Assembly: GCA_937929805.1 (NCBI GenBank)
Contig: CALFUT010000012.1
Location: 1 to 64,000 of the forward strand
DNA: 64,000 bases
DNA from: an uncultured Pirellulaceae bacterium
GTDB taxonomy: Bacteria > Planctomycetota > Planctomycetia > Pirellulales > Pirellulaceae
Reading direction: 5' to 3'
Part shown: one piece after another, positions 31,897-43,287 of the stretch
Position numbering within the stretch: the first letter of the stretch is position 1
How the letters are laid out: every line of letters starts with the position of its first letter
The notes under the pieces: generated by a model
What the model was told of the DNA's origin: nothing
The model's input: the letters and a program-made list of their open reading frames with translations, nothing else
Database searches by the model: none
Position numbers and translations under genes: made by a program

Positions 31897-34800
31897 TTAC
31901 TCAGCAGCCGGATCAACGACGCCGGGGTTTAGTCCGACGGTGTTCATCAACCACAGCAATGCCGGTGAAGCGATGAAGATCGAGCTGTAGGTACCGACGA
32001 TGACGCCGACGACCAACGCGAATGCGAAGCCGTGAATCGCGTCACCTCCAAACCAATACAGAATAAAGACCACGATGAACGTCGTGAGCGAGGTCAGAAT
32101 CGTTCGGCTGAGTGTTTGAGAAATACTGTCGTTGATCATGTCGGCAGTGATCTCAGTCCGTTTACCGCGAACTTCACGGATCCGGTCGAACACCACGATC
32201 GTATCGTTCAGCGAGTAACCGATGACGGTCAGCAAAGCGGCAACGATCTCTAGGCTGATCTTGAATTCGTCGATCTTCAAGAAACCTAAGGCTCCCGCTA
32301 CCCAATGGCTGATCGCAATGGCACCCAGAACGATCAAGACGTCGTGAATCAACGCAATCACAGCCGCGAGGCCGAATGCGATGTTTTGGAATCGAATCCA
32401 AATGTAAGCGATAATTCCAATCAGGCTGGCGGCGATCGCTCCAAGAGCCTGAAGCTGAGTCTTGCGAGCAATCTGCCCACCGACTTTGCTTGCGGCTGGA
32501 AAGTAAGGTTTCTTGTTGAAGTTCTCGGACCATCGATTAACGATCTGCCCAGCGTCTGCCTTACGTTGAACATCCATCGTGACGCTCCATGTTTTAGACA
32601 GGGTCGAGAGCGGCGAGTCGTCGGGAAGGATGTCTGGTGAATCCAAGTCGATCTGAGTTTCTTCTAGGTCCAGTTGGACATCACGTGAGGCATCCACCAA
32701 CAACGATCGAACCGTTTTGCCCGTGATGGGCTGATTGAAGGACAACTCCGTTGTAACTTTTTGCTCGTTTGGAGCTTCGGCTTGGGGTTCGGCAAGATCT
32801 TCCGGGCTGGCCATCGGCGCGGCCGGTTTATCATCAGGAATCGAGTCGGTGTCGAGGGAATCCAGATCCATTTGACCGGGCTCGGAGTCCGACGGTGTTT
32901 CTACTTCGGTTGTTTCTGGTTCAGTTTCCTGATTGGTCGCCGTTTCTGGTGCGGCTACGGCTTCGACTGTTTCAGTAACAGCTTCCTGAGTCGATTCGAC
33001 CGCAGTTTCTGCTGCCGCTTCCACGGTTTCAGTTGCCGCTTCCACAGCGTCTGTTACCGCTTCTTGAACTGGCTCGCCCGCATCCTGCAACAGAAATGCG
33101 GATGCAGCACCCGGGAAGATGAAAGATGCCGGTGCGGCTGACCATTGAGCTCCTTGACGTTTCAGTTGCTCAAGGTTCAGGCGCGGACGTTTTGTCGGTT
33201 GGTAAGAACTACTGTCTGACTTGTCGGCAGCCGATGAAATGCTACCCACGTCAACGTGGTGAAGTTGCAGTTTGTCTTTGAACAAACGCGAAAGAAGTTC
33301 GTCCAGTTGTTCGAAACGAGTTTCCTCATCACCACCCTCCCAAGCTGGAAGGCTGCTGTCGACCTTGAAGACACGATCTTTCAAATCAGGATCGTCGTCG
33401 TTGTTGAACCCGGTGACACTGAAGTCAATCTTTTCATCGTTGTGAACAACTTCCGCATTCTCCAAGGTTTCACGGATTTCTTCGACATCCTGAGCCTCAT
33501 TGAACACCATTCGGACGGTCGATCCGCCTCGCAGGTCATGGTTCAGCAAACGTGAACCGAAGTGGAAGATCGAGAACAGCCCCGCGATGATCAACGCGGC
33601 CGACATGACTCCCGTCAAGCTAACTTTGTTAAGGAAGTTCATTTTGCTCTTCGACAAGATTCGTGTCATGTTCAGCTTGGTTAGATAACGCTTGCGTTCT
33701 GCAATATCAAACAGCAGTCGCGAACAGAAGATCGCGGTGAACATACTCATCAGGATACCCAGAATCAATGTGACCGAGAAACCTTTGATTTGCTCGGTTC
33801 CAATCACGTAAAGCACGATCGCTGTGATCAAGGTGGTTACGTTGGCGTCGACAATTGTGGTGGTCGCTTTGTCGAAACCGTTTCGAATCGCCATCCGCAA
33901 TGCGGCTCCACGATCGAGTTCTTCTCGAATACGTTCGAAAATCAGCACGTTTGCATCGACGGACATACCGACGGTCAGTACCAGACCGGCCAAGCCCGTC
34001 AGAGTTAGCGGCTGCTTGATCGCCATGATCAACGCGAGAATTAGAACCAAGTTCAACACCAACGCGATCGTCGCCACGATACCGGCGAAGCGGTAATAGA
34101 ACATCATGAAAATTAGCACCAAGATTAGCGATACCGAGATCGCCCAGATGCCTTTTTCTTTCAGTTCTTGACCAAGCGTCGATTCGATGAAGTCCTTACT
34201 GATCGGGGCCTTGTTCAAAGCGACTTCCAATTTGCCGCTTTTCAGCTTGATGACCAGATCTTCCACTTCCTGCGTCGTGAACTGGCCTGTGATCTGTCCA
34301 TTGCCGTAGATCGCTTCGTTAATGTTAGGTGCCGAGTGCAACTGATCGTCAACGACGATTCCCATCGGACGGTTCTTGTTGATCGCGGTAAACGAGCCCA
34401 GCATGCTGGTTCCGGCACTGGTGGTTTTGAAATACACACAGCCTCGACCACGTTCGTCGGTTCCGTTGCTGACACTTGCCAAGTGAATACCGTTAACGGC
34501 TTTGTCTTCTGACGGCTCTAGCATCAGAACTTGAAGTGTTCGGATTTTATTTCGCTGACACCAGACGGCCAAGTTGGCGGCACTTTGGTCCGGATCGTTG
34601 GTTAAGACGTTTGCAAACTCCTGAAAGTTAACAATGCGTCCGGTGCTTTTGTCGCGAATTAGGTTGTTTGAGCTTGGGACTTGCTTCAGAGGCATCAGCC
34701 GCGTTGGATCGTTCGGTGGTGCAACAACCGAGGCGATTGACGTCCACTTCGCAACGGTTTTACCTTCCGCGTTTTTGACTTCCCGCTTTCGGCTACCTTC

Positions 34801-35382
34801 AGCCGCCTGTTTACGTGCGAGGTCGAACTCTGCAGCGTTTTTCTGGGCTTCGGCAACGATCCGAAACTCCAATTTCCCGGCCTCGACTAATCGTTTCCAA
34901 ATGTTGTCGGCGTCTTGAAGGTTGGTTGAGGGGATGGTGACCTCAATTTTGTCGGCTCCAAGAGCACGAATCATGATCTCTTTGGTACCCGACGGATTCA
35001 CTCGCTGGACCAAGTTGGGAATGATATCCTTGGCCTGAGGCAGCACGCCTCCTTCGTTATCCCCCAAAGCTTCTAGGTTCAGCGAGCCCACCATATTGAT
35101 GCCGCCTCGCAGGTCGACGCCGAACTTTGGAGGCCAGTTGGTGCCGATGATCAGCGATGCTAAGAGCACTGGGATCAGTACCGTCGCCATCCGTCCGGAA
35201 TAGTCGGGCGTGTTGATTGCCTTGCAAATGACGCCGCTCAGGAACCAACCCAACACGATGGTCGCGATCAGAACGAAGAACACGATCATGCCCGGCGGAA
35301 TCATCGGCTCGGTGGCTTCGGTGCCCCCGGCTTGAACGGCTTGGGCAAGAAACAGGCTTTGGGTGAAAAGGATATCGAACAT
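31897..35382 (-). CDS. secDF: SecDF protein-export fusion with acidic insert
   Basis: SecD and SecF are fused in one 1161-residue protein, an RND-type pump that uses the proton gradient to pull proteins out of SecYEG. The SecD half has a second N-terminal helix, FGVDLRGGINM, and the six-helix block with VGMSVDANVLIFERIREEL. The SecF half has HDLRGGSTVRMVF, VIGYSLNDTIVVFDRIREVR and a final helix set. Between SecF helix 1 and helix 2 there is an extra ~130 residues (about 740-870) rich in Glu, Thr, Ala and Val with imperfect repeats such as EAVTETVEA. ATG at 35382 has AGGA upstream. It follows yajC, in the usual tgt-yajC-secDF order. Confidence 0.95.
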   Translation of the reverse strand: MFDILFTQSLFLAQAVQAGGTEATEPMIPPGMIVFFVLIATIVLGWFLSGVICKAINTPDYSGRMATVLIPVLLASLIIGTNWPPKFGVDLRGGINMVGSLNLEALGDNEGGVLPQAKDIIPNLVQRVNPSGTKEIMIRALGADKIEVTIPSTNLQDADNIWKRLVEAGKLEFRIVAEAQKNAAEFDLARKQAAEGSRKREVKNAEGKTVAKWTSIASVVAPPNDPTRLMPLKQVPSSNNLIRDKSTGRIVNFQEFANVLTNDPDQSAANLAVWCQRNKIRTLQVLMLEPSEDKAVNGIHLASVSNGTDERGRGCVYFKTTSAGTSMLGSFTAINKNRPMGIVVDDQLHSAPNINEAIYGNGQITGQFTTQEVEDLVIKLKSGKLEVALNKAPISKDFIESTLGQELKEKGIWAISVSLILVLIFMMFYYRFAGIVATIALVLNLVLILALIMAIKQPLTLTGLAGLVLTVGMSVDANVLIFERIREELDRGAALRMAIRNGFDKATTTIVDANVTTLITAIVLYVIGTEQIKGFSVTLILGILMSMFTAIFCSRLLFDIAERKRYLTKLNMTRILSKSKMNFLNKVSLTGVMSAALIIAGLFSIFHFGSRLLNHDLRGGSTVRMVFNEAQDVEEIRETLENAEVVHNDEKIDFSVTGFNNDDDPDLKDRVFKVDSSLPAWEGGDEETRFEQLDELLSRLFKDKLQLHHVDVGSISSAADKSDSSSYQPTKRPRLNLEQLKRQGAQWSAAPASFIFPGAASAFLLQDAGEPVQEAVTDAVEAATETVEAAAETAVESTQEAVTETVEAVAAPETATNQETEPETTEVETPSDSEPGQMDLDSLDTDSIPDDKPAAPMASPEDLAEPQAEAPNEQKVTTELSFNQPITGKTVRSLLVDASRDVQLDLEETQIDLDSPDILPDDSPLSTLSKTWSVTMDVQRKADAGQIVNRWSENFNKKPYFPAASKVGGQIARKTQLQALGAIAASLIGIIAYIWIRFQNIAFGLAAVIALIHDVLIVLGAIAISHWVAGALGFLKIDEFKISLEIVAALLTVIGYSLNDTIVVFDRIREVRGKRTEITADMINDSISQTLSRTILTSLTTFIVVFILYWFGGDAIHGFAFALVVGVIVGTYSSIFIASPALLWLMNTVGLNPGVVDPAAE

Positions 35383-35611
35383 CCAAACGATTCCTGGTGG
35401 TAAACAGATAGGGATACGGTTTTGTAATAGTTTCACAATCGAGGCGACTAGCTTCGCAGTTGCTTCGTTGGCCTGCCGTTGGCAGGACTCAAGGGGTGCC
35501 CGTTTGCAGCGTGCAAAATTCGCACTTCACGAAACAGGCTTGATTTAAGAGCAGTTTCCCCGAGCTCAACTCGAAAAGACTGGTCCGATTTCAGAACGAG
35601 TAAGCCGATGG

Positions 35612-36028
35612 TTAGGCAGACTGTTTCGAATCGTCATCGGAAAGCACTCGAGCGATCGAGCTTGCCAGCACTTGCATCCTAGCGTTGGTAGAATCGTCGA
35701 CTCGGATCGTAACGTAATCGTTATCGGAGCGAAGGTTGACGACGGTACCAAGGATGCCTCCAGCTGTGACAACTCGATCGTTCTTTTTTAGTTTCGCCAA
35801 CATGTCGGCCGACTTGTTCTGGCCTCGATCCTGAGGTTTACCCATCATGATCAAGTACAGCACGGTGACCGCCATCATCGCCGGAAGCATGAAACCCATG
35901 TTGTCCCAGAATCCCGGTTGTTCGGGAGCCTGTTGTTTGGCAGCACCTGCAACTCCCTCAACGACTTGCGTCTGAGCGAGCAGCACTTGAATGCCAAAAG
36001 CATGGCAAAGAAAAATCAGTTGTCCCAT
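35612..36028 (-). CDS. yajC: Preprotein translocase subunit YajC
   Basis: A 138-residue small membrane partner of SecDF. It has a leader segment, one membrane helix (MLPAMMAVTVLYLIMM), and the conserved cytoplasmic part LKKNDRVVTAGGILGTVVNL, characteristic of YajC. The N-terminal ~35 residues before the helix include a second hydrophobic stretch and are longer than in E. coli YajC. The gene lies 229 bases upstream of secDF and downstream of tgt, all on the minus strand, as in many bacteria. Confidence 0.92.
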   Translation of the reverse strand: MGQLIFLCHAFGIQVLLAQTQVVEGVAGAAKQQAPEQPGFWDNMGFMLPAMMAVTVLYLIMMGKPQDRGQNKSADMLAKLKKNDRVVTAGGILGTVVNLRSDNDYVTIRVDDSTNARMQVLASSIARVLSDDDSKQSA

Positions 36029-36245: not shown

Positions 36246-37361
36246 TTAAGCGTTCCAACCAGTCGACTTCTCTTGGTGGAAGTCCATAAAGCAGTCGGCG
36301 GCGATCGCTTCTCTGGCCTGCCGCATCAGATGTTGGTAGTAGTTCAGGTTGTGCAGAGACAACAGGATGGGGCCAAGCATCTCGTCGGCTTTGAAAAGAT
36401 GGCGAAGATACGCTCTGCTCAGGTGAGCGTACGGGCCCGGCAAGCCAGCCTGAAGCGGCTGAGGATCACGCTCGTGGCACAAGTTTCTCAGTTTCAGCTT
36501 GCCTTGATCCGTGAACGCGGTGGCATTGCGACCATTTCTAGTCGGCATCACGCAATCGAACATGTCGACGCCTCGCCGAACACCCTCCAGCAAATCCTGA
36601 GGTGTGCCGACTCCCATCAGGTAGCGAGGCCGATCTGCAGGCAGCAGGGGGCAGGTATGGTCCAGCGTGGCGTACATTTCGGCGGGCGGTTCCCCAACGC
36701 TGAGCCCTCCAATGGCGTAACCCGGAAAATCGAGGTCGATCAGGCCCTCAGCCGATTTTTTGCGGAGATTTTTATCCAAACCGCCCTGAACGATGCCAAA
36801 TTGGATCTGCGATGAAAGCGTATGAGCATCCCGTGAACGCTTTGCCCATCGAGTCGAACGTTCCATGGCGTCCTCGACATCCACCGGAGAAGAGGGCAGT
36901 TCGATCACGTGATCAAGAACCATCGCAATGTCGGATCCCAATTGCTGTTGGATCGAAACGCTTTCCTCCGGAGTCAGCGAAATTTTTGAACCGTTGATAT
37001 GAGAGCGAAACGTGGCTCCTTCTTCCGTGATCTTGGTCAGCCTTGCCAAGCTGAACAGTTGGAATCCGCCGCTGTCCGTCAGGACGGGCTTGTCCCAACC
37101 CATGAACGAACCGATTCCACCCAAGTCAGCCACCACATCCGCCCCAGGGCGCAGGTGCAAGTGATACGTGTTGCCCAGAAGAATTTGAGCGCCGGTCGAT
37201 TCAACGAGTCCGGTCGTTAACCCTTTGACGGTCGCCAACGTTCCAACAGGCATAAAGGTCGGCAGGTCAATCACTCCGCGAGGAGTCGTTAATCGGCCCA
37301 GCCGAGCACCGCACTGTTTGTCGACGTGGAGAAGTTCGAATTGGAAGTTTTCAGTTTTCAG
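36246..37361 (-). CDS. tgt: Queuine tRNA-ribosyltransferase, unusual start
   Basis: Tgt exchanges G34 for a queuosine precursor in tRNAs with GUN anticodons. Motifs include [38 protein letters not shown] (catalytic Asp), GIVQGG and the RNA-binding/zinc region [15 protein letters not shown]; a zinc site near C-terminus is partly visible ([10 protein letters not shown]). The conserved beginning [20 protein letters not shown] is in frame upstream of the first ordinary start (GTG 37274) but has no ATG, GTG or TTG before a stop at 37365-37367. The only candidate is CTG at 37361, giving 371 residues, the normal length. The 5' end lies within a TTTTCAG repeat. Confidence 0.88.
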
Positions 37362-37605: not shown

Positions 37606-38931
37606 TTACTCGCCTCGCAACTTTAATCCCGCTTGGTCCAGTTTCTCACGGACTTCCGTCAGGCTGGTCACGCCGAAGTTCTTACACTCAAGCAAATCAT
37701 CCATCGACTTGCGGACCAATTCACCAATCGTGGTCAAGCCAAGGCGAGTCATGCATTTACGGGCTCGAACGGAAAGGTTCAGATCGGACATTGGGCGATC
37801 AAGCAGCGCAAGTTTGTCGGGTGACAGGTTGCTGGTGTCGACCACGTCGGTTTCGACTTCTTTTTCGTGGGCGAACTGGCCGATTGAGAGGCCCTTGTTG
37901 GCCATCATCTCACGGATTTCCACCAGCGAGGTTTCACCAAAGTTTTTACTGCCCAGCAGCTCGCCTTCGCTGACTTTGGACAGATCGCCAAGCGTTAAAA
38001 TGCCCATCTTCTGCAAGCAGTTGCGGCTTCGAACGGACAGTTCAAACTGAGCGATTGGAATGCTCATGACGCCCGCAATCTGCTGACGCTGCTTCTCGCG
38101 ATCGTGATCGTAGTGCTCGTCCATCGAGGCACACGCATCCGCTCGGTACAACAAAGCTCGCTCGTGCGCTGGGTGCGATTCCAAGATGCGATCGTAACAC
38201 CGAGCCGCACGCTCGTACTGGTCATGGTCTTCGTACAACAAGCCAAGATTCAACAAGGCTCCCACATGAGCCGGGAACACTGCCGCCGCTCGTTGGTAAA
38301 GCTCGATCGCTTTTTCGTCGTTGCCGCGTCGATCGTTCTCCAACGCCAGCCCGAACAAGGCACCCGGGTGATTGTCTTCAATCTCGACTGCACGCTCGTA
38401 CAACTTGTAAACTTCGTCAGGGTTGTCACATGTCGCCGCGATCGTGGCACCCCGTTGGAACAGGTACTCGGCAGTCTGTTCCACTGGACCAAACATGTTG
38501 TCCAAAATCGCCATCGCTCCGGGTAAGTCTAAAGCAAGTCGCTTCGTTTCGGCGACTGCCAGTTGGCAAAGGTCTCCGTTGTAACCAGCTTTTTGAGCGG
38601 ACTCGTAGCATTGCTCAGCCTTCTCATACGCACCAAGTGCAAAGTTGCACTTGCCTTGGTAGAAGTACGCGAGCGCTCCACCGTCAGCGTTCTGGAGGAT
38701 CTCGATCGCTTCGGAGTACCGTCCCAGCATGTACAGACAGATACCGAAACGAACCGCTGCGGCAGGCGTCCGCTCGGTGTGTGTTTCCATCTCCGCTGTC
38801 ACATCTTTCAGCGCTCCCAGCTGGCTATAGTCATTGCAGACTCGCCGGCGGATGAACGAAATTTCATTGGGACCGAATGAACTGTTGGAAAGCAGCACAT
38901 CTTTGAGCTCAAGTTCCGGTGCTTGGGCCAT
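37606..38931 (-). CDS. TPR protein with two tandem RNA polymerase alpha-CTD-like domains
   Basis: A 441-residue protein. Residues ~55-285 form tetratricopeptide repeats (for example AAAVRFGICLYMLGRYSEAI and GALLNLGLLYEDHDQYERAA). Two helix-hairpin-helix domains follow at ~295-352 and ~377-440, each strongly resembling the C-terminal domain of the RNA polymerase alpha subunit. Residues equivalent to E. coli DNA contacts: Arg265 is kept (R301, R389), Asn268 is N304 in the first but K392 in the second, Gly296 and Ser299 are kept (G332/S335, G420/S423), Lys298 is Thr in both. This is not the polymerase alpha subunit, which would carry an N-terminal assembly domain. A DNA-binding or polymerase-associated scaffold role is inferred. 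Confidence 0.88.
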   Translation of the reverse strand: MAQAPELELKDVLLSNSSFGPNEISFIRRRVCNDYSQLGALKDVTAEMETHTERTPAAAVRFGICLYMLGRYSEAIEILQNADGGALAYFYQGKCNFALGAYEKAEQCYESAQKAGYNGDLCQLAVAETKRLALDLPGAMAILDNMFGPVEQTAEYLFQRGATIAATCDNPDEVYKLYERAVEIEDNHPGALFGLALENDRRGNDEKAIELYQRAAAVFPAHVGALLNLGLLYEDHDQYERAARCYDRILESHPAHERALLYRADACASMDEHYDHDREKQRQQIAGVMSIPIAQFELSVRSRNCLQKMGILTLGDLSKVSEGELLGSKNFGETSLVEIREMMANKGLSIGQFAHEKEVETDVVDTSNLSPDKLALLDRPMSDLNLSVRARKCMTRLGLTTIGELVRKSMDDLLECKNFGVTSLTEVREKLDQAGLKLRGE

Positions 38932-39537
38932 GAAGGGACTCCGTAAAGGTTAACACTTGGCGAAATAGGATCATCGAAACCGCGTATTTTGGCATCAATT
39001 CAAAATAAAATCAACCGAAACCCGGTGGTGAGTCGGTGTATCCGAATATTGATCGTGAACTTCCGGGCCTGAATTAAGAGAACATCAACGAAAACCGCGT
39101 TTTGTCCCGTAAACGACCGAAGCCATTGCCCCAATGTGACCAAAAACAACTGGTTCAAGAACTGCCGGCTCCGGCTGCTGGCCCGATTGTTGGATCGCAA
39201 GCTTTCGGGCTGGTCTGTTGCAGAAACTATTTGATCACAACGCTAACGATCACCGGGCCACCCGAAAATTAAGGTGTGACAAAGCACGAGGGTCGTTTCG
39301 GTCCGAATTGAACGGATATGTCAAATAGTCTGGTTGCTTGAGCTAGGTGATCCTTTTTTGGTGCGAGAAGTTTCCATTCGAGCGATGATCTCGAAGTAGA
39401 CTCTCGACGACCCGAGTTCTCGCGTCTTTTGGGCGTTGTCTAGTCGCCAATCGATCTACTTTTCCCCTCCTCAACAAAACTGAACCATGACTCGCTAGCG
39501 CAGCCAGCGAACTGACTTGAGTTCGGTCTCGTTTATC
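38932..39537. other. Intergenic region between divergent genes
   Basis: About 600 bases with promoters expected for both flanking genes. I see no consensus promoter, repeat or gene of confidence in it. Confidence 0.4.
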
Positions 39538-42500
39538 ATGATGATAATTTCAGACGCACGATTTCTGTTGAGGTTCTTTCAAAGCTTTGCTCCTCTGGTC
39601 GCTGTTTTCTTACTGGCTTTGATGCTTCCAAGCGGGTGCGAGGCTCAGCAAGCGGATTTTCGCGACCTGAGCTCGATCCGAAAAATGGAAATTGACAGCT
39701 CTATCGGCATGTTGGTCGACTTTGAGGCAACCGTCACGTTTGTTGATGGGATGCGAGAATTTATTTTTGTGCAAGATCAAGACGCGGCGATCTTTGTGCA
39801 CAAGCCAGACCTGCCAGCGGTAGAGCTGGGCCAGCGAGTCCGTGTGCGGGGCCAGCTAGCCAAAGGTGACTTGCTACCGATCGTCTCCAACCCAACAGTG
39901 ACGGTTGTCAGCGACGGTTCGTTACCCGTTGCCGAAATAGTTTCTCAAATTGGTATCGAACATGACTGTCGCTACATAACGTTCGAGTTTGATATTTTGG
40001 AGACCAGCCTTAGTGCATCGACGGTAAGGCTTTTTGGAACCACCGGCTCGGACAAGGATGTCTGCATCGAGATGCCAAACTCTGAAAGCATCACGTCGTC
40101 CGTTGTTTCCATGTTCGCCGGCAACCGAGTTCAATGCGATGGCGTCCTTGGTCTTCAAATTGAAGGCAGCTTCTACCAAGAGCCCGGGAGCCAACGTCAC
40201 AATATCGCGGGGTATAAAATATTCTGTGAATCTCCGGACGCCATTAGGATCGTTTCAGATGACGATAACACTGACCAGCGAAATGCAGCACGGGTGGTCG
40301 GGCTGTCGTTCCTAGACCAAGACAGTTTTTCACAAGGCCGCTTCGTTACGTTCGCTCAGATTTGCTTGATCGACCATGCGAAGCCGCGTGGGTTTGTGAT
40401 TTCTGACGGACCGACGTTCAAACATTTTAATCTGCATTCGACGCATGGATTGCAACCCGGGTTACTTGTGAGGGTGGGCGGATCAAAAAACACGTCACCT
40501 GATGGGCAGACGCATTTCAAAGTTGACTCTCTACAGCATTTATCGCTTTCTGACTTCCCGCACATGGATCCTGTTTCAGTTGAACGGGCGACTGAAGAGT
40601 TCAGGCCCAACCGACGGATCGTTGTCGAGGGAAGTCCCGTGCGGATTGAAAATCGTGAGGACGGAAGGTATTTGATTCTCGGCGAAGGAAGTTCGACCGT
40701 CGCTGTTCAGTTTCAAGATGCCGCGTTGGATTCTCTGTCGTCTGTCACGCCAGAGATCGCCAGCCGGGTTCAAATTGCCGGCGTGTCTCGCCCTGACGAA
40801 AGTTGTGGCTTCAAACTTGTGGTTGTCCGCCCTGACGATGTGCATTTGGTCGAAAGTCGGACTTCTCTCTCGCGTAGCGTTCTGATTGGTTTGTGGGTGC
40901 TTTTCGCGATTTGCACATTGGCGGCTCTGTGGATCAAAATGCTCAGATCTCAGGTTGCTCAGAAACAACGCTTTGAATCGATTTTCGATAGCGCCGGTTG
41001 CCCGATTGTCGTTTTCAACGGACGGCTCAAGATCGACGACGCCAACCAAGTGGCAGCGGATATGTTGGGCTACTCGAAATCCGAGCTGCGCAATATGACC
41101 GTCTTTGATATCGACAAGAAAATGGACCCGCGGGCAATCAAGCAAATGTTGCTCCGGGTAATGAAAACTCGGGAGGTCGCGGTGTTCCCGACTCAGGTTG
41201 TCACGCGTGACGATCAACACTTGGATGTGGAGGTTCACAGCCGAATTCTTACACCGTCCGAAGATCCTGAAAAAGCAGAATACATCGCTATTTTCCCCGA
41301 CATAACTGCGCGCAATCAGCATGAAAAGGAATTGGAACAGGCTCGTGATGCGGCTATCGAGGCGAACAAGGCAAAAAGCCGATTCTTGGCTTCCATGAGC
41401 CACGAGCTTCGTACTCCTCTTAATGGCGTCATTGGAATGACGCAGTTACTTGAACGGACTGAATTGACTCCTACCCAGGCGGACTACCTAGGGGCGTGTC
41501 GGACCAGCGGCGAGACTCTATTGACCGTGATTGGCGATGTGCTTGATTTCTCAAAAATGGAAGCTGGAAAGCTTGAGCTCAACCCTGAGGAAACGGAGTT
41601 GATTCCGTTTGTCGAACATATCGTTCGGGCGACAAGTCTGCAGCAGGCGACTCGCCATGTTGAACTGGCCAGCTTTGTCGATCCAAAGCTCAGTCGACGT
41701 GTTTTGGTCGACAGCGATCGGTTCCGACAAGTGCTTTTCAATCTCATTGGAAATGCTGCGAAGTTCACGCCACAGGGTAGCATTACCGTCACGGCGAAGT
41801 GTTCTGAAACCACCGACGAACATACGAAAGTTCGCTTCATCGTCTCGGACACAGGAATTGGGATCCACGAAGACCGAATCGAAAGTCTTTTCGAAGCGTT
41901 TGAACAGTTCGATTCATCCACCACTCGCCAATACGGTGGAACTGGATTGGGGCTGACGATTTGCAAACAGATTGTTGACTTAATGGGCGGACGCATTCAT
42001 GCGAAAAGCGTGGAAGGTCAGGGAAGTCAATTCATCGTGGACGTTTGTCTGCCGTTTGTGGAATCAGAAAAATCTCAAGCCGAAGACAGTCAGCCGCAAG
42101 TCACGAACTTTCGACGTTTGGCAGTTGTCGGTATGAGCGAGCCAATTGCTAACTTGCTTCGACAAATGCTTGATGAATTTGAAGTTACCACTTCGTTCAT
42201 TGGAAACAATGAAGTTTTGCCCGTCAACGAATTTGACATGGTAATGCTTAACACGGCAGGAGACCTCGACACAGTGACCGCGTTCATGGATTCGCAGCCG
42301 GTGTTTCTTGCGGACAACGCGCCGGTGCTGGTTCCCGTTGTGCCAGCCAGTTGTTTTGTCGAAGCAGACGAATGGGTCATTGAAGGTGCTCGAAAACCAA
42401 TGTGTAAACCGTTTTCTCAAACTCGAATCTCGGATCTGATTTATTCGCAATCCAACGCAGTTGAGCAAGCGGCGACTGAGAGCTCAGCGATGATTGGTTC

Positions 42501-43287
42501 TGAGGGACGCCCGTTACGAGTCCTGATTTGTGAAGACGTTCCTGTGAATCAAATGTTCGCGAAAGAAATCTGTTCCAAAGCCGGCATCGATTTCGTGGTG
42601 CGGGACAACGGTAGGCAAGGAGTGGAAACGCTTCTCCAAGACACACGATTCGACGTCATTTTCATGGATTGTCACATGCCGATCATGGATGGATTCGAAG
42701 CGGTCGGAATGATTCGCCAGATGAGCGAGCAGGGGTTGATCCCAGAAATACCAGTTGTGGCGCTGACCGCCAATGCGTTAGCAGGAGACCGAGAAAAATG
42801 CCTCGCAGCCGGAATGGACGACTACCTTGCCAAGCCATTTGAGTTTAATGAATTTCTCGAAAAAGTTCACGTTCACGCGAAGTTGTCCGCGGCGGACGAG
42901 TCGCATCAGGGAATGAATGAACATGTGGAAGATGTGAAAACCGATGTTCCTGCATTTGATTTCGAGTGCCTTGTTGATCGTGTTGGCGATCGATCTTTTG
43001 CGATCAGCGTTGCCGAGCAGTTTGCCGCTTCGCTGCCGCAGTACGTGATGGATTTGCAAAATTGCCTAGACGAACAGGACCCGCAGAAAACTCATGCAGT
43101 TGCTCATTCGCTGAAGGGATCGGCCAGCATGGTCGGTGCCACACGTATCAGCAACATTGCGGCCGAAATTGAGTCAATGGCTCAGAGCAATCAGTTGCAG
43201 CAAAACGAAATCCAGTTTGCCGAAATTTTGTCTGAGTTCAACGAATTTGTGGAAGCGCTTCAACGAGAATCGCTTGCCGCGGTTTAA
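39538..43287 (+). CDS. Hybrid sensor histidine kinase with PAS, two receiver domains and HPt
   Basis: A 1249-residue multidomain phosphorelay protein. Order: signal peptide or first helix (~10-35), periplasmic sensor of ~410 residues with repeated OB-like segments (LGQRVRVRGQLAKGDLLPIV), a membrane helix (~447-470), PAS (~485-595), HisKA with H622 in SMSHELRTPLNG, HATPase with NLIGNAAKF and GTGLGLTICK, a degenerate receiver (~860-975) whose phospho-site reads FDMVMLNTAGD (Asn for Asp), an intact receiver with D1044 in FDVIFMDCHMP, and an HPt domain with H1190 in AHSLKGSA. ATG 39538 is one of two adjacent candidates; a TTG at 39517 is also possible. The output partner is not in the window. Confidence 0.9.
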   Translation: MMIISDARFLLRFFQSFAPLVAVFLLALMLPSGCEAQQADFRDLSSIRKMEIDSSIGMLVDFEATVTFVDGMREFIFVQDQDAAIFVHKPDLPAVELGQRVRVRGQLAKGDLLPIVSNPTVTVVSDGSLPVAEIVSQIGIEHDCRYITFEFDILETSLSASTVRLFGTTGSDKDVCIEMPNSESITSSVVSMFAGNRVQCDGVLGLQIEGSFYQEPGSQRHNIAGYKIFCESPDAIRIVSDDDNTDQRNAARVVGLSFLDQDSFSQGRFVTFAQICLIDHAKPRGFVISDGPTFKHFNLHSTHGLQPGLLVRVGGSKNTSPDGQTHFKVDSLQHLSLSDFPHMDPVSVERATEEFRPNRRIVVEGSPVRIENREDGRYLILGEGSSTVAVQFQDAALDSLSSVTPEIASRVQIAGVSRPDESCGFKLVVVRPDDVHLVESRTSLSRSVLIGLWVLFAICTLAALWIKMLRSQVAQKQRFESIFDSAGCPIVVFNGRLKIDDANQVAADMLGYSKSELRNMTVFDIDKKMDPRAIKQMLLRVMKTREVAVFPTQVVTRDDQHLDVEVHSRILTPSEDPEKAEYIAIFPDITARNQHEKELEQARDAAIEANKAKSRFLASMSHELRTPLNGVIGMTQLLERTELTPTQADYLGACRTSGETLLTVIGDVLDFSKMEAGKLELNPEETELIPFVEHIVRATSLQQATRHVELASFVDPKLSRRVLVDSDRFRQVLFNLIGNAAKFTPQGSITVTAKCSETTDEHTKVRFIVSDTGIGIHEDRIESLFEAFEQFDSSTTRQYGGTGLGLTICKQIVDLMGGRIHAKSVEGQGSQFIVDVCLPFVESEKSQAEDSQPQVTNFRRLAVVGMSEPIANLLRQMLDEFEVTTSFIGNNEVLPVNEFDMVMLNTAGDLDTVTAFMDSQPVFLADNAPVLVPVVPASCFVEADEWVIEGARKPMCKPFSQTRISDLIYSQSNAVEQAATESSAMIGSEGRPLRVLICEDVPVNQMFAKEICSKAGIDFVVRDNGRQGVETLLQDTRFDVIFMDCHMPIMDGFEAVGMIRQMSEQGLIPEIPVVALTANALAGDREKCLAAGMDDYLAKPFEFNEFLEKVHVHAKLSAADESHQGMNEHVEDVKTDVPAFDFECLVDRVGDRSFAISVAEQFAASLPQYVMDLQNCLDEQDPQKTHAVAHSLKGSASMVGATRISNIAAEIESMAQSNQLQQNEIQFAEILSEFNEFVEALQRESLAAV

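Follow-up and report, generated by a model that had tools for sequence, protein, structure and literature searches.

The gene at positions 37606-38931 (minus strand) of the window, the 64,000-nucleotide stretch of DNA from an uncultured Pirellulaceae bacterium analysed here, encodes a 441-aa protein in which tetratricopeptide repeats (TPRs) are followed by two tandem domains, CTD1 and CTD2, whose sequence and predicted fold are those of the C-terminal domain of the RNA polymerase alpha subunit (alpha-CTD). The reading that we favour, with a probability of about one half, is that of two alpha-CTDs cut off from polymerase and mounted on a TPR scaffold, which would bind in trans to AT-rich promoter DNA, close to sigma region 4.

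Domain organization of the TPR-CTD protein

The open reading frame starts with ATG, and its product is matched in two stretches by the alpha-CTD family of Pfam (PF03118, RNA_pol_A_CTD), with an E value of 4.9e-40 and 135.5 bits for the whole protein and 73.9 and 71.1 bits for the single domains (cut-off 23.8). From the Pfam and PDB matches and the predicted fold, CTD1 spans residues 288-352 (37876-38070, minus strand; PF03118 match at 37900-38085) and CTD2 residues 376-440 (37612-37806, minus strand; match at 37636-37821). Entropy and pLDDT delimit a variable, low-confidence linker between them (residues 353-371; 37819-37875, minus strand). The TPR region, at residues about 51-256 (38164-38781, minus strand), is recognized by TPR_1 (58.8 bits, cut-off 27.8), TPR_2 (58.2 bits, cut-off 27) and further TPR models above their cut-offs, and a long helix, apparent from both the AF2 model and conservation (residues 257-289; 38065-38163, minus strand), connects the TPRs to CTD1. 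The arrangement described in an earlier note on this DNA, TPRs followed by two tandem alpha-CTDs, is thereby borne out.

The protein is distinct from the polymerase subunit itself. In its own genome (a draft of 74 contigs and 4.2 Mb, 95.6% complete), PF03118 gives three matches at E <= 0.001, namely RpoA and the two CTDs. The RpoA frame exceeds three RpoA cut-offs (358.2 bits with TIGR02027), whereas the TPR-CTD protein is matched by the RpoA models in two stretches, best in the CTD region, and stays below all cut-offs (120.2 bits with TIGR02027 vs 227.8). Among the 25 of 28 Pfam families listed for it, there is no model of the alpha N-terminal domain (NTD) nor, at E <= 1, of a DNA-repair helix-hairpin-helix (HhH). 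Over 61 genomes, PF03118 matches exactly three times in 49, which fits RpoA plus two CTDs, more often in 11 and twice in one.

Predicted fold

A full-length AlphaFold2 (AF2) model was built with an alignment of 47 family sequences. It has a mean pLDDT of 88.6 and a pTM of 0.61, and orders the chain into TPR helices, the 33-residue helix 257-289 and two small helical domains with a low-confidence linker between them. The 50 Foldseek matches listed for this model are TPR or similar helical-repeat proteins, and because of this dominance the C-terminal tandem was folded separately. The tandem model alone, built with 54 sequences, has a pLDDT of 80.4, with block means in the linker down to 51 and 62, and its pTM of 0.43 means that the relative placement of CTD1 and CTD2 is not reliable.

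Searched against the PDB with this tandem model, Foldseek returned 45 rows at E <= 0.001, all 45 of which are RNA polymerase or alpha-CTD entries as classed by entry title; they include 9zum, in which an alpha-CTD sits on AT-rich DNA, and 3n97, a complex of alpha-CTD, sigma region 4 and UP/-35 DNA. VIA-align placed CTD2 on 8y5l (Z 13.3, 1.0 A over 67 residues) and CTD1 on 9zum (Z 13.2, 2.6 A over 77 residues) and 8y5t (Z 13.0, 0.9 A over 67 residues), with 36-42% identity in these three rows. Note that Z values below about 13 can be unspecific for helical proteins, so that the low rmsd and the identity weigh more. In the PDB sequence search, the best matches of CTD1 (E 6.4e-12) and CTD2 (E 1e-12) are alpha subunits, which we take to be proteobacterial and mycobacterial. 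Rather than the different HhH fold that the earlier note had named as a possible outcome, the predicted model is an alpha-CTD by both Foldseek and VIA-align, and a common repair HhH was set aside as the probable origin of the domains: no such model is among the 25 of 28 Pfam families listed, though absence from a list falls short of proof, and the 45 Foldseek rows are those of RNA polymerase or alpha-CTD.

DNA- and sigma-contact residues

In excerpts of the literature, R265 and N294 are the residues inserted into the minor groove in E. coli, with K291/K298 forming bridges to the phosphate backbone (PMC7822876), R265 and N268 are important for binding DNA (PMC11434276), R265, N294 and K298 may contact UP DNA (PMC5101437), and D259/E261 support UP function via R603 of sigma70 (PMC5511352). 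The window protein carries R301, N304, C305, N330, G332, T334, S335 and E338 in CTD1, and R389, K392 (the N268 position), N418, G420, T422 and S423 in CTD2. The arginines, glycines and serines pointed out in the earlier note (R301, R389, G332, G420, S335, S423) are all present as named, and the Asn268 equivalent is indeed kept in CTD1 only (N304 vs K392); the Asn294 equivalents N330 and N418, also present, had been overlooked. That Lys298 is Thr in both domains is right by letter (T334, T422) but not special, since Thr is also what 53 of 56 RpoA sequences of the phylum have at this position, and for the same reason the notion that Thr at 298 marks a loss of function was discarded.

Family-wide counts come from an alignment of 61 sequences (loci L063-L122 and the window protein; L005-L062, which crowd a few families, were left out). 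In CTD1, R265, N294, G296, S299 and E302 are each found in 61/61 sequences, C269 in 59/61 and N268 in 58/61; of the UP-element contact set R265, N268, N294, G296, K298 and S299, it keeps all but K298. CTD2 has R265 in 60/61 and both N294 and G296 in 58/61, with Lys (35/61) or Arg (18/61) at position 268. Thr occupies position 298 in 61/61 CTD1 and 56/61 CTD2, which in view of the RpoA of the phylum is no departure from the local polymerase. The K291 position of CTD1 is mostly Ser/Ala; with both K298 and K291 replaced, its DNA affinity may be low, though RpoA shares the Thr at 298. As for the polymerase itself, the RpoA of the phylum has Ser at 299 in 37 sequences and Thr in 19, besides Thr at 298 in 53/56, so that its own UP-element recognition may differ from that of E. 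coli.

On the sigma-contact face, position 259 of CTD1 is acidic (Asp/Glu) in 57/61 sequences and 261 is Glu in 58/61; the window protein itself has Gln in place of Asp at 259. Of three sigma-70-type proteins in its genome that were inspected at their ends, two presumably carry the R603-equivalent Arg, judging by eye from an alignment to the E. coli letters; all three stay below the RpoD_Cterm cut-off.

Conservation compared with the polymerase

The mean column entropy (bits, n = 61) is 0.99 in CTD1, 1.58 in CTD2 and 1.80 in the long helix, where D265 and D275 are present in 60 of 61 sequences; it amounts to 2.05 in TPRs 166-256, 2.79 in TPRs 51-165 and 3.30 in the linker (352-371), the C-terminal repeats being better conserved than the N-terminal ones. 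Three short members (L108, L109 and L113; 341-348 aa) are matched only from residues 158-179 onward, from which the core seems to consist of the last TPRs, the helix, CTD1 and CTD2.

The comparison with RpoA covers 56 of the 61 genomes (no RpoA there in G326, G138, G202, G130 and G154), RpoA being identified by RpoA models in 10 and by frame length and domain in the rest. Mean pairwise identity is 0.688 for CTD1, 0.552 for the alpha-CTD of RpoA and 0.503 for CTD2; identity is higher than in RpoA for CTD1 in 1382 of 1540 pairs and for CTD2 in 489 of 1540, the pairs being non-independent.

The conserved residues would be consistent with DNA or polymerase binding in trans, and conservation of this strength would suit a face that binds protein no less than one that binds DNA. 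CTD1 has conserved residues where RpoA is variable, namely R/K at 267 (61/61), Met at 273 (56/61), Glu at 297 (56/61) and Lys/Arg at 310 (55/61), and it lacks the backbone lysines; both features would suit a mimic of alpha-CTD whose CTDs compete for activators or sigma, and which would act as a co-regulator or brake with DNA binding as an option. However, CTD1 never departs from the minor-groove residues R265 and N294, and CTD2 hardly ever does, and we hold this alternative to be rather unlikely. Against the trans-acting, DNA-binding factor that we favour, it must be said that CTD2 mostly lacks N268 and that its conservation falls below that of the alpha-CTD in RpoA.

Distribution in the phylum

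Among 292 genomes drawn evenly from the phylum, with five candidates scored per genome and the match places partly listed, 287 match the family at E <= 1e-20 (weakest 2.3e-36), with one match each save G330 and G334, which have two. Co-occurrence in planctomycetes, which the earlier note had raised as a question, is therefore near-universal, and a local oddity or a recent gain is rejected on these counts. Of the five misses, G186 has a clear family fragment in the profile search, starting at base 3 of its contig, G210 an 85-aa CTD2-like frame and G088 a 73-aa alpha-CTD frame not separable from RpoA; G165 and G290 have RpoA-like and TPR matches. In a separate set of relatives, the family protein is found in 54 of 60 genomes, the own genome included, in pieces or in part in G014 and G043 and with an internal stop in G020; the matches in G006, G010, G016, G023, G032 and G053 come only via RpoA or other alpha-CTD/TPR proteins.

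A degenerate DNA pattern of the CTD1 motif, run over GTDB genomes, hit at least 119 stretches, and 117 of the 119 listed match the query at 100 bits or more. L126 holds only 62 residues of alpha-CTD, with the protein elsewhere in the same genome, and L205 matches with 77 bits over 142 residues. The 80 titles listed presumably comprise 72 planctomycete names, 6 'bacterium' and 2 Proteobacteria labels. One of the latter, L146, was rejected as proteobacterial since its contig number, coordinates and scores are those of G211, which is sorted in this phylum; the other, L134, is labelled Alphaproteobacteria. From the genome counts the family looks phylum-wide and, as far as the pattern matches listed go, largely phylum-specific; so strict a pattern would miss divergent relatives.

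Origin of the two domains

A FastTree tree of 186 alpha-CTD domains over 65 columns places CTD1 in one group (61/61, support 0.947) and CTD1 together with CTD2 (122/122) apart from all else (support 0.846). CTD2 is split in this tree, with 54 of 61 together (support 0.605); 2 of 57 RpoA domains fall outside the RpoA group (support 0.778), which the mycobacterial outgroup failed to join. When seven viral domains (below) are added, CTD2 becomes whole (61/61, support 0.895). Both CTDs probably stem from one duplication before the sampled lineages split, within the resolution that 65 columns allow.

Viral copies and other free alpha-CTDs

Scans of IMG/VR found 13 loci with the family alignment and 10 with CTD2-like sequences, on partly shared contigs. 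Eight contigs score best with the CTD2 or CTD1 model (L302, L303, L304, L305, L306, L320, L321 and L322), a viral locus being counted only at a score margin of at least 11 bits; L304/L305, for instance, reach 97.2 bits with CTD2, 82.7 with CTD1 and 76.4 with RpoA. Left uncounted were L308-L311, where CTD1 scores highest, 3 to 5 bits ahead of CTD2, and L312, L313 and L323, where the lead of CTD2 is 0.2 to 3 bits, together with L307, L314 and L324, whose highest score is with RpoA. The three domain models sort their own kind in 61/61, 61/61 and 57/57 cases, all of them training members. In the tree, where repeated sequences or contigs (L315, L317, L319, L320, L321, L322) were entered once, six of the seven viral domains belong with CTD2 (support 0.895) and the seventh with CTD1 (0.967). 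R265 is retained in the viral copies, as is N294 in those of the CTD2 type.

L302, L304 and L306 would encode small proteins of about 70-76 aa if an internal ATG is used; on the other reading, the domains lie within longer frames, of 72 to 143 aa. The protein of L322, on a 198-kb contig, is 375 aa long and contains four alpha-CTD-like units; of these, the second is CTD1-like (90.2 bits vs 71.4 and 60.1) and the fourth CTD2-like (71.8 bits vs 60.8 and 59.9), the other two being weak; a viral scan with this four-domain protein found only itself. Long collagen-like (GXY-repeat) proteins, recognized from translation, are encoded on the same contig (L322:110-3651).

A gene for the terminase large subunit lies past the domain gene at about 1.4 kb in L302 and 1.0 kb in L305, and for L306 the phage signs are limited to weak matches and a dUTPase at a distance of about 4 kb. 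For L320-L322 viral status is given by presence in IMG/VR, and PHROGs applied to the neighbours of L306 and L320-L322 gave mostly unknown families or no match. We infer that the viral contigs belong to planctomycete phages that took the domain genes from their host.

Other alpha-CTDs occur outside RpoA. The viral frames of L308-L314 (159 to 302 aa) carry an alpha-CTD behind longer N-terminal parts, and a 'DNA binding protein' of Microbacterium phage Mazun (MT657337.1, 15179-15358) resembles the alpha-CTD region with an E value of 1e-4. Proteins of 98-107 aa with just one alpha-CTD are encoded at L298 (G033:C1:4285348-4285533), L300 (G057:C7) and L301 (G046:C279), in genomes of the window's family or order; they make up a separate group in the tree, with support 1.0, and the RpoA model gives them their highest scores. 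With body-less alpha-CTDs in both relatives' genomes and viral contigs, the earlier statement that free-standing alpha-CTDs are rare was too strong.

Gene neighbourhood

Downstream in the window, on the minus strand as well, lie tgt, for tRNA guanosine(34) transglycosylase (36246-37274; TIGR00430, E 2.7e-133), yajC (35612-36028; TIGR00739, E 3.1e-12) and secDF (31897-35436; TIGR01129 and TIGR00966). Upstream and divergent, a large hybrid sensor histidine kinase is encoded at 39517-43287 (plus strand; best match BarA, below cut-off), for which we found no evidence of a link with the TPR-CTD gene. Over 60 family loci, the same-strand downstream genes include a ruvA cluster in 24, directly next in 22, followed in frequency by SpoIID/LytB-like (12), tgt (11), yajC (10), secDF (8) and ruvB (5), the cluster names being those of scanned members of L073. 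There the order is the family gene, ruvA, ruvB, a 193-aa protein with no NCBIfam match, SpoIID/LytB-like, tgt, yajC and secD(F), and the cluster order is shared by L067. A DksA-like gene, below the DksA cut-offs, lies directly upstream of the family gene in L073 (5339-5824) and forms no recurring cluster among the 60 loci.

This neighbourhood points to an old gene position and, weakly, to a link with DNA processing. The frequent ruvA cluster and the gene-ruvA-ruvB order would suit a recombination or replication helper working with RuvAB, its alpha-CTDs serving as generic helix-hairpin-helix DNA holders. The ruvA/ruvB/tgt/yajC/secDF row is, however, common in bacteria, so that adjacency to ruvA says little for such a role; ruvA was not seen in the other 36 of the 60 stretches (6 of the 60 have fewer than two downstream genes), the 24 ruvA sequences have no match at 1e-3 in the 64-kb window, and the domains are specifically alpha-CTDs with the sigma-contact face kept, which makes this role improbable. 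Also improbable is a tether of polymerase outside initiation, in elongation or in coupling to translation or another machine via its TPRs, which are partner-binding scaffolds, with the alpha-CTDs docked on NusA-like or other partners: the coupling and antitermination complexes among the Foldseek rows are there only because they contain an alpha-CTD, and nothing specific speaks for it. The neighbours ruvA/ruvB/tgt/yajC/secDF include no transcription genes, which counts against the trans-acting factor that we favour.

Discussion

In polymerase, the alpha-CTD is familiar as a tail on a flexible connection. On the reading that we favour, the family protein would be a phylum-wide transcription factor made from a duplicated alpha-CTD freed from RNA polymerase, for which we infer DNA binding, a sigma contact, a TPR partner and an effect on transcription. 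CTD1 as the main and CTD2 as the auxiliary domain would hold the minor groove of AT-rich DNA on the upstream side of the -35 element, and the acidic 259/261 face of CTD1 would touch sigma region 4, as the polymerase alpha-CTD does. The TPR scaffold and the long helix would recruit a partner, either polymerase itself or a regulator, and UP-element-like promoter contacts could in this way be added in trans at chosen promoters. It is also possible, though doubtful, that the whole phylum uses the pair as a second, trans-acting unit of promoter recognition beside RNA polymerase, and that its phages captured this unit to take over or block host transcription; the captured form would then be CTD2 on its own, or else an array of several domains that combines CTD1-like with CTD2-like parts.

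Compared with the alpha-CTD of RpoA (PF03118; PDB 1lb2, 3n97, 3k4g), the family protein shares the fold, the residue pattern R265/N268/C269/N294/G296/S299/E302 in CTD1 and, in most CTD1, the acidic 259/261, but has no alpha NTD and carries two tandem copies after TPRs and a long helix; it differs from the E. coli domain in the replacement of N268 by Lys/Arg in 53 of 61 CTD2 and in Thr at 298. Proteins of the PRK07758 type (NF005841, 95 positions, 'hypothetical protein') are likewise alpha-CTDs without the polymerase body, and NF005841 matches the TPR-CTD protein at E 8e-13 (48.5 bits vs a cut-off of 115); unlike the family protein, however, they and L298/L300/L301 have one domain and no TPR. 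AfsR, as presented in excerpts of PMC10936776, is a TPR-containing transcription factor too, a SARP activator with NOD and TPR domains, whereas in the family the TPR protein itself carries the alpha-CTDs. No paper describing TPRs with tandem alpha-CTDs was found among the open-licence papers searched, and an excerpt on PVC signature proteins (PMC3444138) names another protein, not this architecture.

Transposon essentiality data are published for Planctopirus limnophila; excerpts of the paper do not name the TPR-CTD gene (PMC10632474). From the distribution in the phylum, P. limnophila is expected to have this gene, and it is an organism where the candidate role could be tested. Near-universal presence, a CTD1 under stronger constraint than the RpoA tail, and copies on viral contigs together suggest an overlooked core transcription factor in a phylum with divergent cell biology.
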